A stretch of 64,000 nucleotides of DNA, from positions 248,001-312,000 of the forward strand of contig QKJQ01000027.1 in the NCBI GenBank assembly GCA_003249225.1, written 5' to 3'. The stretch comes from Clostridia bacterium (GTDB lineage Bacteria > Bacillota > Clostridia > Lachnospirales > Lachnospiraceae). Positions 12,293 through 17,680 of the stretch are shown here, in pieces. The stretch's first letter is position 1. Each line of letters starts with the position of its first letter. The translations under genes and the position numbers were made by a program. The notes below the pieces were generated by a model. The model did no database searches and was not told where the DNA came from. It worked only from the letters and a program-made list of their open reading frames with translations.

Positions 12293-13543
12293 TTACAAAA
12301 AACTTAGGAACAGCATAACATTTAGCACGGTAAGTGTGATCCCTATCAGCCATAGCGCTATGTTGTCAAATTTTGAGTTCTTATATTTTCCCATGACTTT
12401 TTCAGATGATGTCAGATAAATCTGTAAAAATACCGTGATCGGAAGCTGTATACTCAAAAGCATCTGGCTGTAGACAAGTCCGCTGAAAGGATCCTTGATG
12501 CAAAAGATAACAACAACTGCAAGAAACAATATGAATGCTACACCCATTTTGGTATGACGGTCTTTGATATCATAGGACTCTCCGAACATTCCGGCAAAAA
12601 TTGTACCGCCTGACATTCCGGCTGTTACCGAGGAAGAAATTCCGGCTAAAAGCAATGCAACGCCAAAAACAAGTGCTGCAATGTTTCCGACCAGGGGGAC
12701 CAGCATCTGCTGTGCTTGTTCCAGTTCATCGACCGCAATAAAATTTTTATAAAAGGTTGTTGCGGCAAGAATAATCATGGAACTGTTAATTGCCCAGCCA
12801 ATGACCATGGAAAGCAGAGTATCCGTGAATTCATATTTAAGTTGTTTTTTTATTATTTTATCATCTTCGAGATTCCACTGACGGCTCTGAATGATCTCCG
12901 AGTGCAGAAACAGATTATGAGGCATAACAACTGCCCCAAGCACCGACATAATAATCGGCATTGCTCCATCCGGAAACTGAATGGTCACCCAGCCGCGGGC
13001 CGCTTCTCCCCAGCTTACATCGACAACACTTAACTCATAGAGGAACGAAAGTCCAATGATAGAAACAAAGCCAATGATCCATTTTTCAAGTTTCTTGTAG
13101 GAATTTGTAAACAGTAATATCAAAATCAGCAGAAATATCATGATCGCTCCAAGCTTGACCGGAACACGAAAAAGTAATTTTAATGCGATCGCACCACCGA
13201 GGATCTCTGCGAGTGCAGTTGATATTGTGGCTATGATGCCAGTTGACAGAATTGTCTTTGAAAGCCATGGTTTTAAATGTTTGGTTGCAGCCTCTGCCAG
13301 ACAGTCTCCTGTCGCAATTCCAAGATGGGCTACGTTGTGCTGTAAAAGAATTAACATTATGGTTGATAACGTGACCATCCAGAGCAAAGTATATCCATAC
13401 CCTGAACCTGCTGCAATATTGGATGCCCAGTTTCCCGGGTCAATAAATCCCACGGTAACAAGCAATCCAGGTCCGATATAGCGGAATAAATCCTTAAGTC
13501 CAAATTCCGGCTTATGTCCTTTTGTGCTGAAAATACGAATCAT
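12293..13543 (-). CDS. mntH: Nramp-family divalent metal (Mn2+/Fe2+) importer
   Basis: A 416-residue proton-coupled metal transporter with 11 or so membrane segments. The metal-site motif of segment 1 is D-P-G-N (in G-F-I-D-P-G-N-W) and that of segment 6 is M-P-H (in V-V-M-P-H-N-L-F). Both are intact, which supports Mn2+/Fe2+ uptake. The start at 13543 has GGAG 6 nt upstream; earlier ATGs lie inside or before that site. It heads a four-gene operon and is preceded by an unusually long, dyad-rich leader, pointing to metal-responsive control. Confidence 0.92.
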   Translation of the reverse strand: MIRIFSTKGHKPEFGLKDLFRYIGPGLLVTVGFIDPGNWASNIAAGSGYGYTLLWMVTLSTIMLILLQHNVAHLGIATGDCLAEAATKHLKPWLSKTILSTGIIATISTALAEILGGAIALKLLFRVPVKLGAIMIFLLILILLFTNSYKKLEKWIIGFVSIIGLSFLYELSVVDVSWGEAARGWVTIQFPDGAMPIIMSVLGAVVMPHNLFLHSEIIQSRQWNLEDDKIIKKQLKYEFTDTLLSMVIGWAINSSMIILAATTFYKNFIAVDELEQAQQMLVPLVGNIAALVFGVALLLAGISSSVTAGMSGGTIFAGMFGESYDIKDRHTKMGVAFILFLAVVVIFCIKDPFSGLVYSQMLLSIQLPITVFLQIYLTSSEKVMGKYKNSKFDNIALWLIGITLTVLNVMLFLSFL

Positions 13544-13579
13544 AGTTTTCTCCATTCCTGCGGTTATCTTTGCGCATAT

Positions 13580-13646
13580 CAAGTTTGAACGAGCGGTGAC
13601 ACGCGAGGTACAAACTTGCTTGTGAAAGAATTATTTAATCTTTCAC
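13580..13646 (-). promoter_or_regulatory. Structured mntH 5' leader: two inverted repeats
   Basis: Within the roughly 200-nt untranslated leader two stems can form: GTGAAAGA-N9-TCTTTCAC (13622-13646) and CAAGTTTG-N23-CAAACTTG (13580-13618). No T-tract follows either. I could not match the region to the yybP-ykoY manganese riboswitch core. Confidence 0.45.
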
Positions 13647-13729
13647 TCTTTCTCCCATTTTATGTAACAATTCGTGCATATTCTGTAAAATAAACAGTCA
13701 TATGATATCTATCGTGATGAATGTAAATC

Positions 13730-13782
13730 AACATGAAGTAGTAACTTCATGTTATTATAACCCACCGAAATAAAATCAACAA
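13730..13782 (-). promoter_or_regulatory. mntH promoter and start-site operator
   Basis: On the minus strand TTGTTG (13777-13782), 17 bp, TATAAT (13754-13759). A perfect 9-bp inverted repeat, AACATGAAG-N6-CTTCATGTT (13730-13753), covers the predicted transcript start. This is an operator position suited to repression. The rest of 13544-13977 contains no gene. Confidence 0.55.
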
Positions 13783-13977
13783 TAGTAATCCAGGGTATTT
13801 TATGCATTAATTATTCACCACAAAATATGGATTCGGATATCATTTTACAACTATATTTTGTATCTGTCAAACTGCCCGATTTGACAAACACTTATATTTT
13901 TATTATACTTTACTCGTTACTGTAAACCGTTTTACCTTGTCTGCCGACCGTTGGAGGCAGCAGAAAGGAGATTTACA

Positions 13978-16191
13978 ATGCAGTGTTTCAACAAAACGAT
14001 TGAGGCTGTTATTTTTGACATGGATGGTACAATGTTCGATACCGAGCGCTTACGATTCAAGATGCTGAAACAGGCATCAAAAGCATTATTTGGGACTGAA
14101 ATGTCAGATCAGTTACTGTACGATTCCCTGGGTGTAAGTGCCATTACCGGCGAAACGTTGGCGAAAGAATTATATGGAGATAATTTTCCTTATAAAGAAA
14201 TCCGAAAGATGGCTGATGAACTGGAAATGCAATATATTATGGACAATGGAGTCCCTGTCAAAGAGGGACTCTATAATTTACTAGAGCGATTAAAAAAAAA
14301 TCAGGTACTGATTGCTCTTGCCACTTCAAGTCGCAGAGAAATTGCATCCCGGTACATGATACGCGCAAAAGTTTACCGTTATTTTGATATTCTAGTCTGC
14401 GGTGATGATGTGGAAAATGGAAAACCAGACCCTGAGATATTTACTAAAGCGATAATGGAACTAAGCTGTCCGGCTGACAGGTGTCTTATCGTGGAAGACT
14501 CACAGAATGGTATGCTTGCTGCCATTGCTTCAGGTGCCCACCCGGTTTTTATAAAAGACATGAAAGACATTGACCCGCAAATCCGAAAAAAAGCCTTCTT
14601 ATCTTATGACTCATTGAGAGATTTTCTAAAAGATGTTATTCCCTTCACCCCTGCGCTTCCTATTCCGAGCCTCTATGAAAGCTTCCCTTTGAACACTGGA
14701 TATGAAATTGCAGGAATTCATGGGTTTGGAGCTATCGGCGGTGGATATCTCGCACAAATCTTTTCTTACTGGGATGGATATACGAGACCTCAGGAATTGA
14801 TTGCCGCAACGCCCAATCCAATTTTACTTCAGCTTATAAACTCTTTTGGCAAGTACAGGGTCAAATACGAAAGTCTTGCTTATTTTCAAAGTATTGAAAC
14901 CATTAAAATGATTGATATTAACGATGAGGATGCTATGCTCAACATGTATCTACGCTGTTGTATCATTGGTCTTTCAGTTCCCGAATCTGTCCTCCCATCA
15001 CAGGCAGGCATAATTGCGAAGGGCCTGTTGAACCGCTATGAAACAAAAAATGAGCCTCTGACAATTCTGATTGTAATGAATAAAATAAATGCCGGCAGGT
15101 TCGTAAAACGATATGTTAAAAAAGAACTTCTTCTGCTTACAGACGAAAGTACAGCAAATAAAATACTTAACCATTGTTATTTTTCTGAGACAATCGTAAA
15201 CAGGATGGTTTCAAGAATCCCTGAAACAGAATTAATCGCAAAACTAAAGGATGACCTTTACAGTCTCTATCATAATGTTCAATTATATTCTGAGGATCTG
15301 CAGAGCATTTTTACTATTTCGGAAGGGTTTGCACAAAACTCAGGTCATTCCAAAAAGTCCAAAAAAAGGCAACAGGAAGAAGCTAAAACAGAGTTGCAAA
15401 ATGTCAGTATCTCAGGAAATATCTCTGGAATTGCAAGATTCACAAAAGATTTTACAGCACTTAACCTAACCTTATTCAGTTCAGAATCTGATATGCCGCT
15501 TTATGCTACCAAGGGAAGTCCATTACTGGAACGTCTCCGGCAAGTCGAACTGATCGAAGACATAAAATTTATGCAGCAGATCAAGAATAAACTTTCCAAT
15601 GGAACGCATGCAATTATAGCATGGTATTCAAGTCTTTTGGGTTATGAAACCATTGGACAAGGCATGGGAGACGAAAGAGTGAAGCGACTCGCAGTTTCAA
15701 TTATGAAACAGGAACTAAGACCTGTATTTCTTGAACAGAATCCAGACATGAAAACTTATATAAACTCATTTATTGCAAATTTTATTGTACGCTGCAGAGT
15801 TTCTTTTAAGGATAAATGCAGTCGTGTTGGCAGAGACCCCCTGCGAAAGCTTCAAAAAGGCGAACGCGTGCTTGGTGCAGTCGAGATGGCCTCTGATCAC
15901 CAGCTTGCGACAGATTCTCTGGAATTTGGTATCGCCTGCGGACTCTTGTATTCTCTATACAAAGCCTCACCCAAAGATAAGGAAGCAATGATGATTCGAT
16001 CACTGTATGGAAAAAGCAAATCCATTACAGATGTACTTACCTATTCAGGACCCTATAACAATTCCCGCTATAAAGGATTGCATAAGGATAGTGATCATCA
16101 GCTCCTTGAAAGGATTTCACTTCAATTTGACAAACTAAAAGAAAAACTCAATTTTTCAGGTGAAATTCTGCCATACACCGATGATATCTAA
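13978..16191 (+). CDS. Fused HAD phosphatase - mannitol-1-phosphate dehydrogenase-like enzyme
   Basis: A 737-residue two-domain protein. Residues 1-215 are a beta-phosphoglucomutase-type HAD hydrolase: D14-M-D16-G-T, the A-T-S-S motif II, G-K-P-D-P, and V-E-D-S-Q-N-G. Residues about 240-735 resemble polyol-specific long-chain dehydrogenases (MtlD): a Rossmann loop G-F-G-A-I-G-G-G at 249-256 and the catalytic K-x4-N-x2-H set K536, N541, H544, followed by a C-terminal helical domain. A plausible role is reducing fructose-6-phosphate to mannitol-1-phosphate and dephosphorylating it to mannitol, as the fused MtlD of Acinetobacter baylyi does. It is monocistronic, with AAAGGAG 7-8 nt before the ATG at 13978. 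The fusion is seen directly; the substrate is inferred. Confidence 0.8.
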   Translation: MQCFNKTIEAVIFDMDGTMFDTERLRFKMLKQASKALFGTEMSDQLLYDSLGVSAITGETLAKELYGDNFPYKEIRKMADELEMQYIMDNGVPVKEGLYNLLERLKKNQVLIALATSSRREIASRYMIRAKVYRYFDILVCGDDVENGKPDPEIFTKAIMELSCPADRCLIVEDSQNGMLAAIASGAHPVFIKDMKDIDPQIRKKAFLSYDSLRDFLKDVIPFTPALPIPSLYESFPLNTGYEIAGIHGFGAIGGGYLAQIFSYWDGYTRPQELIAATPNPILLQLINSFGKYRVKYESLAYFQSIETIKMIDINDEDAMLNMYLRCCIIGLSVPESVLPSQAGIIAKGLLNRYETKNEPLTILIVMNKINAGRFVKRYVKKELLLLTDESTANKILNHCYFSETIVNRMVSRIPETELIAKLKDDLYSLYHNVQLYSEDLQSIFTISEGFAQNSGHSKKSKKRQQEEAKTELQNVSISGNISGIARFTKDFTALNLTLFSSESDMPLYATKGSPLLERLRQVELIEDIKFMQQIKNKLSNGTHAIIAWYSSLLGYETIGQGMGDERVKRLAVSIMKQELRPVFLEQNPDMKTYINSFIANFIVRCRVSFKDKCSRVGRDPLRKLQKGERVLGAVEMASDHQLATDSLEFGIACGLLYSLYKASPKDKEAMMIRSLYGKSKSITDVLTYSGPYNNSRYKGLHKDSDHQLLERISLQFDKLKEKLNFSGEILPYTDDI

Positions 16192-16282
16192 TCCGGTGAA
16201 ATAAGAACCGATAATGGCAACGTGTATCCTGAACGAAACACATTTTATATAACAGGAAGGAAGAACGTGCTTTCCTGTTACA

Positions 16283-16315
16283 AAAATACGGGCAGGAATC
16301 TCCTGCCCGTATTTT
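16283..16315. terminator. Bidirectional terminator between the fusion gene and the cheX gene
   Basis: Fifteen-bp perfect arms AAAATACGGGCAGGA and TCCTGCCCGTATTTT with a 3-nt loop, giving a T-run on either strand. A second, longer-looped repeat TAACAGGAA/TTCCTGTTA lies at 16250-16280. Confidence 0.9.
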
Positions 16316-16364
16316 AAATCAACCAATTGGATGGTTTCACAGTATAAGAAACATTTTTACCCTG

Positions 16365-16826
16365 TTATTTTTCAAAGGCGATATTGATATCAATTGGAAT
16401 ATCATCGGCAAAAAGCTGAATACACAGAACCTGATTTGAACTCATCTTAGCTACAATATCTTCTCCGTATAACAACGTGGGGGTTGAGATATCAAGTGTA
16501 ACATTAATAGCCGCAAAGCAGGTTGCTGCATTCGCAGTCAGCATATTGGTCAACTCTGACAAAGCACTTTGTGCCATATCATTCAGCTCGTCCACCGGCA
16601 TCCCCATCATCATGGTAGATGCGATTTTCTTGGCATTCGACATACTGATAGCATATGCAACATTACCTCTGATCTGACCTACAATACCTACGATAATAAT
16701 AACACCTGAATTGTTCAGCTCTTGTGTTTTAACACTCAATTCACCTTTTTTAACACTGCTAAATCCAAGCTGCGGCATAACGCTCATAAAGGATTCAATA
16801 AAAGGATTCACATGTTTTACGTCCAT
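16365..16826 (-). CDS. cheX: CheX-like CheY-P phosphatase domain protein
   Basis: A 153-residue single-domain protein of the CheC/CheX/FliY phosphatase family. It has the family's E-x-x-N catalytic pair in S-E-L-T-N-M-L at about residues 89-94, flanked by the G-x-x-G-Q-I-R-G-N-V strand. It should dephosphorylate a phosphorylated receiver domain. Its start overlaps the end of the receiver-CheX gene by 10 bp, implying translational coupling, so that protein is the obvious partner. No flagellar or chemoreceptor genes are nearby. Confidence 0.85.
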   Translation of the reverse strand: MDVKHVNPFIESFMSVMPQLGFSSVKKGELSVKTQELNNSGVIIIVGIVGQIRGNVAYAISMSNAKKIASTMMMGMPVDELNDMAQSALSELTNMLTANAATCFAAINVTLDISTPTLLYGEDIVAKMSSNQVLCIQLFADDIPIDINIAFEK

Positions 16827-17680
16827 CTTTCTTCTCCTCGCGTGAATCCTACATCAAGCAGCAATTCACCAAATTTTGTTTCTGCTATGACTGCATGCGT
16901 CTTATAATCAGGAGCCGATACATGCACACTCTCTCCAAATAATACCGTAGGCGGCGATATTCGAAGACCCAACGATTTTTCTTTCATGTTTACATAGGAA
17001 CATGCATTCCCAGCCACCACATTTACCAATTCTGCAATTGCTATCATCACATCTTCTTTGTCCGGTGCTTCCTTATTACTTAGTTCAGAAACAATATTCA
17101 CTGCAGTCTCTTTACTCAAATCTATAAGCAATCGACCTGAAAATTTCCCGATAATACCAATAATGACCGTTAGCCCCTTTGATTTAAATTCTTTTGTATT
17201 GATGAAATCCTCACGAAATGTCAAAGGTGCTTTTACCATCTTTCCAAACCCGTTTACCATAGCCTCCTTGAACATTACAAAAGAATCCTCTTTCAGGAAG
17301 CGGTATAACTCCTCGGTGTCTAATACTCTTTTAATTGTTGAAAATAATTCATCCGGTTCAACAGGTTTTTGAATGCATGCAGAGATCTTATTCTCTTTTG
17401 CTTCTCTGACAATCTCATCATCTAACATGGAACTTATCATAATTACTTTAATATCTGGATCTATCTTATGAACTTCCCTTGTACATTCAAATCCATCTGT
17501 ACCGGGCATAGTCATATCCATGGTTACCAGCGTCGGCCTTGTCTCTTCAACCACTTTTATAACTTCTTCACGCGTTCCGGCAATTCCCACAACCTGAAAC
17601 CCATGCTCTGTCAGTATGTTTCGCAGCAGGGAAATCAAAAATGGGGAATCATCAACTATAACGATTCTAACTTTGTCCAT
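16817..17680 (-). CDS. Response regulator receiver fused to a CheX-like domain
   Basis: A 287-residue protein. Residues 1-120 are a receiver: D-D at 9-10, the phospho-acceptor Asp in T-M-D-M-T-M-P-G at about 55, S-S at about 82 and Lys in Q-K-P near 104. Residues about 140-285 are a CheX-like domain with its own E-x-x-N (A-E-L-V-N-V-V) at about 220. No DNA-binding output is present, so signalling is by protein contact or phosphate flow. It is the first gene of a two-gene operon with cheX (10-bp overlap). GGAGG precedes the start. Confidence 0.87.
   Translation of the reverse strand: MDKVRIVIVDDSPFLISLLRNILTEHGFQVVGIAGTREEVIKVVEETRPTLVTMDMTMPGTDGFECTREVHKIDPDIKVIMISSMLDDEIVREAKENKISACIQKPVEPDELFSTIKRVLDTEELYRFLKEDSFVMFKEAMVNGFGKMVKAPLTFREDFINTKEFKSKGLTVIIGIIGKFSGRLLIDLSKETAVNIVSELSNKEAPDKEDVMIAIAELVNVVAGNACSYVNMKEKSLGLRISPPTVLFGESVHVSAPDYKTHAVIAETKFGELLLDVGFTRGEERWT

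Follow-up and report, generated by a model that had tools for sequence, protein, structure and literature searches.

A phosphatase-dehydrogenase fusion gene, rare among the relatives of its Lachnospiraceae host, that probably makes mannitol from fructose-6-phosphate

The mtlD-type gene in the window (the whole stretch of 64,000 nucleotides that was analysed) encodes a two-in-one enzyme of a known kind, which probably converts fructose-6-phosphate to mannitol. A previous sequence-only reading had proposed that a HAD phosphatase is fused here to a polyol long-chain dehydrogenase. The fusion is borne out by the order of Pfam domains, namely HAD_2 (1.8e-30), Mannitol_dh (7.7e-9) and Mannitol_dh_C (1.5e-16), and by the match to the NF046057 family model, which scores 926.2 bits (cut-off 800, E 1.2e-278) and aligns residues 5-701 with profile positions 4-682 of 683; a nearly full-length match with this E-value excludes chance. 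We assign a probability of roughly 0.78 to the reading in which fructose-6-phosphate would be converted, via mannitol-1-phosphate, to mannitol in a one-way route, with mannitol most likely used as a compatible solute; the substrate, cofactor, direction and osmotic role are what we infer in this reading. The features of the gene and its surroundings are listed in Table 1.

Table 1. Features in and around the mtlD-type gene (window coordinates)
Feature	Position	Strand	Details
mntH	12293-13543	-	adjoins the mtlD region
Copy of a dispersed structured 5'-leader element	13538-13651	-	directly before the probable mntH start (ATG at about 13543)
Sigma-70-like promoter	13881-13909	+	TTGACA-17-TATACT; 11/12, consensus match alone
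LacI-operator-like dyad, GTAAACCGTTTTAC	13922-13935	+	between promoter and ribosome-binding site; weak lead
Ribosome-binding site AAAGGAG	13964-13970	+	just 5' of the mtlD ATG; graded good
mtlD-type fusion ORF	13978-16191	+	737 aa; ATG at 13978, stop at 16189-16191
HAD phosphatase half (beta-PGM subfamily)	13999-14547	+	residues 8-190 (TIGR02009 match, under the cut-off of the model); D14/D16 at 14017-14025
Rossmann half of dehydrogenase	14722-15219	+	PF01232, residues 249-414; glycine loop GFGAIGGG at 14722-14745
Predicted helix-loop-helix	15289-15402	+	residues 438-453 and 462-475; insert before the C-terminal domain
Mannitol_dh_C domain	15580-15954	+	PF08125, residues 535-659; catalytic K536, N541 and H544 at 15583-15609
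15-bp perfect palindrome	16283-16315		between mtlD and a convergent cheX-type gene; candidate terminator

By family model, sequence and fold, the closest characterised relative of the window protein is the bifunctional MtlD of Acinetobacter, the parallel already drawn in the sequence-only reading, which had also suggested structure prediction and comparison with MtlD as a check. In a phmmer search, the protein matches PDB entry 7ocn at 3.5e-171, and the three best distinct PDB sequences all come from the 7ocn-7ocu set, whose titles name A. baumannii MtlD or a variant of it. An AlphaFold model computed from 22 family rows reached a mean pLDDT of 88.8 and a pTM of 0.80, and the top 15 Foldseek matches to it in the PDB are all 7ocn-7ocu chains (E 1.7e-56 or better, 39-40% identity, TM-score on target length 0.79-0.88), whose descriptions cover the enzyme by itself and with bound NADPH, NADH, fructose-6-phosphate or mannitol-1-phosphate; stand-alone mannitol-1-phosphate dehydrogenases follow at ranks 16-17. 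The two proteins share domain order, catalytic residues, glycine loop, fold and length (737 aa compared to 727 in the A. baumannii PDB chain); they differ in host, which is of the Bacillota for the window enzyme, and are about 40% identical over the whole protein. The predicted helix-loop-helix is modelled with low confidence (pLDDT 50-66 across residues 441-480) and might correspond to the dimerisation element of the A. baumannii enzyme, as the title of a paper suggests.

The catalytic positions checked are conserved throughout the family rows. Residues D14, D16, S117, K149, D174, N368, K536, N541 and H544 are invariant in 81 of 81 aligned rows, which comprise the window protein, L039 and 79 of 80 retained loci (L114, with no ORF under the motif, was omitted). 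The HAD motifs named from sequence alone (D14-x-D16, a lysine and a second aspartate) are present as D14, D16, K149 and D174, the K536-x4-N541-x2-H544 motif lies in the dehydrogenase half as described, and N368 of the window protein aligns with N374. The roles of the HAD motifs are well established.

In the proposed mechanism, the C-terminal dehydrogenase would reduce fructose-6-phosphate to mannitol-1-phosphate with NAD(P)H, and the N-terminal HAD phosphatase would hydrolyse the latter, releasing mannitol into the cytoplasm; hydrolysis of the phosphate would make the route one-way. The mannitol formed would most likely be a compatible solute. According to its published description, the A. baumannii enzyme reduces fructose-6-phosphate, is activated by salt and is required for mannitol accumulation and growth at high salt, and its activity with NADH is fivefold lower than that with NADPH (PMC6291793). 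We consider the mannitol-forming chemistry of the window enzyme very likely, and the osmolyte role of its product likely on the strength of homology and of gene context in relatives. The reading predicts that mannitol accumulates in salt-stressed Clostridia. Among the matches listed in a literature search on mannitol as a solute or on the fused enzyme in Firmicutes, none deals with the enzyme there, judging by title or the start of the abstract.

The cofactor might depart from the family pattern. At the end of the second Rossmann strand, the window protein has Pro279 where six of the eight other rows of the Bacillota clade and 60 of the 72 remaining rows have arginine, which is Arg281 in A. 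baumannii MtlD (own numbering, counted from alignments). A basic residue at this point often serves NADPH, so that replacement of arginine by proline may alter cofactor use relative to the family. From this substitution, a shift of preference towards NADH can be envisaged, and a cofactor change at position 279 is accordingly among the predictions.

The context of mtlD in relatives hints at osmotic stress. Ten neighbour proteins were scanned from seven of the eight other loci of the Bacillota clade, and these include one MscS-type and one BusR-like protein. In genome G664 (L039:225-3669 / L134), mtlD runs 8 nt into the gene for the MscS-type channel, whose ATG lies together with the stop codon of mtlD in ATGAGTGA, a sign of translational coupling; the two genes could possibly form a pair that links osmolyte synthesis with release, as the main reading would predict. 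At L048:6350-7027 (minus strand), a gene for a BusR-like GntR-TrkA_C protein is divergent to mtlD, and the best PDB match of its product is 7b5t/7b5y/7oz3 at 2e-41. The source of these structures identifies them as BusR, which binds c-di-AMP and represses busA, the operon for a glycine betaine transporter (PMC8517857). BusR-like proteins (E 1e-28 or better) are encoded in six of the seven mtlD-bearing genomes searched, and among the neighbours scanned such a gene adjoins mtlD only in L048; the genome of [Clostridium] fimetarium yielded none of full length. The two contexts are suggestive cases and do not amount to a rule.

Control of the window mtlD by BusR was considered and rejected: the host genome (88.4% complete) yielded no full-length BusR-like protein, and inverted GAC/GTC pairs with 22-bp spacing were found in the 250 bases upstream of none of nine genes, L048 mtlD included. 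A broader turgor circuit in Clostridia, with mannitol made by MtlD, released through a co-translated MscS channel (as in G664) and placed under BusR-type c-di-AMP control in some lineages (as in L048), is a doubtful extension of these observations. If true, it would imply that c-di-AMP governs endogenous osmolyte synthesis, beyond osmolyte uptake.

The same chemistry could also serve a different end: mannitol would then be no osmolyte but an end product of fermentation, or a redox sink, through which NAD(P)+ is regenerated. The nearest named relatives are Clostridia, which are anaerobes, and the R279P change could favour NADH over NADPH, as would suit such a role. Moreover, the ten scanned window neighbours, which include mntH, chemotaxis-type genes, a MATE efflux gene and ABC sugar permeases, give no functional hint for mtlD, and the lack of an osmotic gene among them both agrees with a redox role and counts against the osmolyte. 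However, the mtlD-mscS pair in G664, the BusR-like neighbour in L048 and the characterised homologue all point to osmotic stress, and we regard a redox sink as rather unlikely.

It is improbable that the substrate of the dehydrogenase is the phosphate of a different ketose or polyol, such as a pentitol or sorbitol. The sequence-only reading had allowed for another sugar phosphate on the grounds that the glycine loop is divergent. This description does not hold: A. baumannii MtlD has the very same loop, GFGAIGGGY, in a three-row alignment that gives 43% identity between its segment and the dehydrogenase half of the window protein, and so do 61 of the 81 rows, the other 20 having GFGAMGGGY. Since the loop is typical of the family, the hedge drawn from it is rejected. 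What speaks for a different substrate is the identity of just 38-57% between the dehydrogenase half and 13 family members compared; against it, the loop and every catalytic position checked match the family, and the score exceeds the equivalog cut-off.

That the protein is a catabolic enzyme oxidising mannitol-1-phosphate from uptake, the direction in which ordinary stand-alone MtlD works, is highly improbable, given that the fused phosphatase would destroy the substrate, that no mtlA match was found in the host genome (88.4% complete) and that models of stand-alone mannitol-1-phosphate dehydrogenases score at most 88 bits on the window protein (cut-offs 269-719). Stand-alone enzymes of the E. 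coli and S. aureus type share with the window protein the dehydrogenase fold and the Mannitol_dh domains but lack the phosphatase, and the window protein is far under their equivalog cut-offs; the PRK02318 models (stand-alone mannitol-1-phosphate 5-dehydrogenase) give 84.7 bits for the whole protein and 87.6 for the dehydrogenase half, compared to a cut-off of 404. A stand-alone mannitol-1-phosphate dehydrogenase works together with mtlA uptake. The mtlA model (TIGR00851) has no match in the host genome and matches in the E. coli, B. subtilis and L. lactis controls, which supports the earlier suggestion of synthesis rather than uptake; at 88.4% completeness of the genome, the absence is provisional. 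Besides the window protein, two proteins of this genome exceed the PF08125 cut-off: a tagaturonate reductase (633 bits, cut-off 359), whose gene adjoins a galactarate-dehydratase-like gene (282 bits, below the cut-off of 731), and a protein with D-arabinitol dehydrogenase (143 bits, cut-off 600) and fructuronate reductase as the nearest models.

The fusion is rare among relatives of the host. A search for it across the host family, as had been proposed, succeeded in the host genome itself and in no other of 299 genomes (298 genera) above the NF046057 cut-off, so that the enzyme is not a general need in the family, a point that counts against the osmolyte. With the dehydrogenase half as query, one of four genomes of the genus has a match, as do two of 398 genomes of the phylum at E 1e-20 or better, namely the host and G664 (at most three first-look candidates were scored per genome in the family and phylum counts). 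The scan of named genomes retained 80 of 133 relatives, mostly from Pseudomonas and Acinetobacter, along with some beta- and alphaproteobacterial ones; seven belong to the Bacillota clade, and six of these carry Clostridia labels ([Clostridium] fimetarium, MAG INTA.CYC.020, Lacrimispora amygdalina, Clostridium sp. E02 and two Oscillospiraceae MAGs); they have the same fusion, with 46-57% identity to the window protein in the dehydrogenase half, and gene neighbours unlike those of the window. At two loci, L050 and L056, a glycosyl hydrolase family 4-type gene comes after an AraC-type gene; in L050 both were identified with Pfam, and the ORF starts of L056 are similar. The seventh member, L042, is a 3.8-kb contig of a genome labelled Crenarchaeota and is probably a binning error.

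The tree was built from 41 of the 81 rows, namely the window protein, all 20 rows outside Pseudomonas and Acinetobacter, 10 of 33 from Pseudomonas and 10 of 27 from Acinetobacter, L114 again being omitted. A branch with 100/100 support separates the window protein, the six Clostridia rows, G664 and L042 from the rest, with L040 and [Clostridium] fimetarium nearest to the window protein. Because the tree is unrooted, transfer could have run in either direction, and the patchy distribution may reflect movement between Proteobacteria and Bacillota. The window gene adds a Firmicute host to a family that is already well studied in Acinetobacter.

In G299, a genome of the same genus (80% complete), a single contig carries the mntH and cheX sides, and the matches are 309 bp apart there, compared to 2757 bp in the window. 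This empty site indicates that mtlD was either gained in the lineage of the window or lost in that of G299. The GC content of mtlD (39.4%) is similar to that of the window (40.9%), so that composition gives no sign of recent import. Among viral contigs, nine matched the pattern and none is a relative. In the plasmid collection, 28 records match and five cover at least 80% of the query, all from Acinetobacter; three of these are chromosome-sized, and the other two, NZ_CP121304.1 and NZ_CP096122.1 (51 and 65 kb), are annotated as carrying the bifunctional enzyme, a possible route of spread. The Spo0A model gives 83 receiver-type matches in the host genome (88.4% complete), none over the cut-off (best 83.9 bits, cut-off 200), a result that neither supports nor excludes Bacillota; the genome thus encodes numerous response regulators but no Spo0A that could be recognised.

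With a promoter-like site of its own and a palindrome downstream, mtlD would be a stand-alone unit. The mechanical ORF list gives an earlier start for it, TTG at 13951. There are 15 promoter-like sites in 13500-16500, compared to a mean of 9.5 (sd 3.4) in shuffled sequences, and the palindrome is absent from a list of five terminator-like sites. The dyad upstream of the gene resembles operators of the LacI type. Its exact pattern occurs at one place in the host genome (both strands, near-palindromic), as does the reversed-pattern control, so that no regulon can be claimed, and a LacI-type operator was set aside. At 16365-17680 (minus strand), a CheX-type gene adjoins a fusion of a CheY-like receiver and a second CheX-like domain, all below the model cut-offs.

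A separate observation concerns the leader element before mntH. It has at least 45 matches in the host genome (40 of 100 candidates scored), some in tandem, and accounts for 42 of the 45 matches that a 7.9-kb query containing it has in G299; two of the three other genomes of the genus have no match to this query. In an alignment of 27 copies (26 from the host genome and one from G299, one more extracted copy being omitted), an ATG stands just after a GGAG-like stretch in 23, and three of the other four are upstream copies of tandem pairs. Of 15 starts found after copies, the 10 with at least 63 aa were run on Pfam and all belong to families, mostly mutually unrelated; the genes include those for Nramp, an SRP54-type GTPase, an MCP, an SbcD-type protein, an aldo/keto reductase and AnmK. 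Folded as a single sequence, the window copy is unremarkable on either strand (z -1.21 and -0.19). Searches against Rfam, at gathering thresholds for the window and at E up to 1 for the element in five loci, gave no match. A four-helix structure, derived from the same 27-copy alignment on which it was scored, is 95.1% paired, compared to 29-46% for slid versions. Changes on both sides occur in 21 cells, chiefly in the first helix (shuffled mean 5.4, none of 500 as high). Possible identities of the element are a novel cis-regulatory RNA and a mobile leader.
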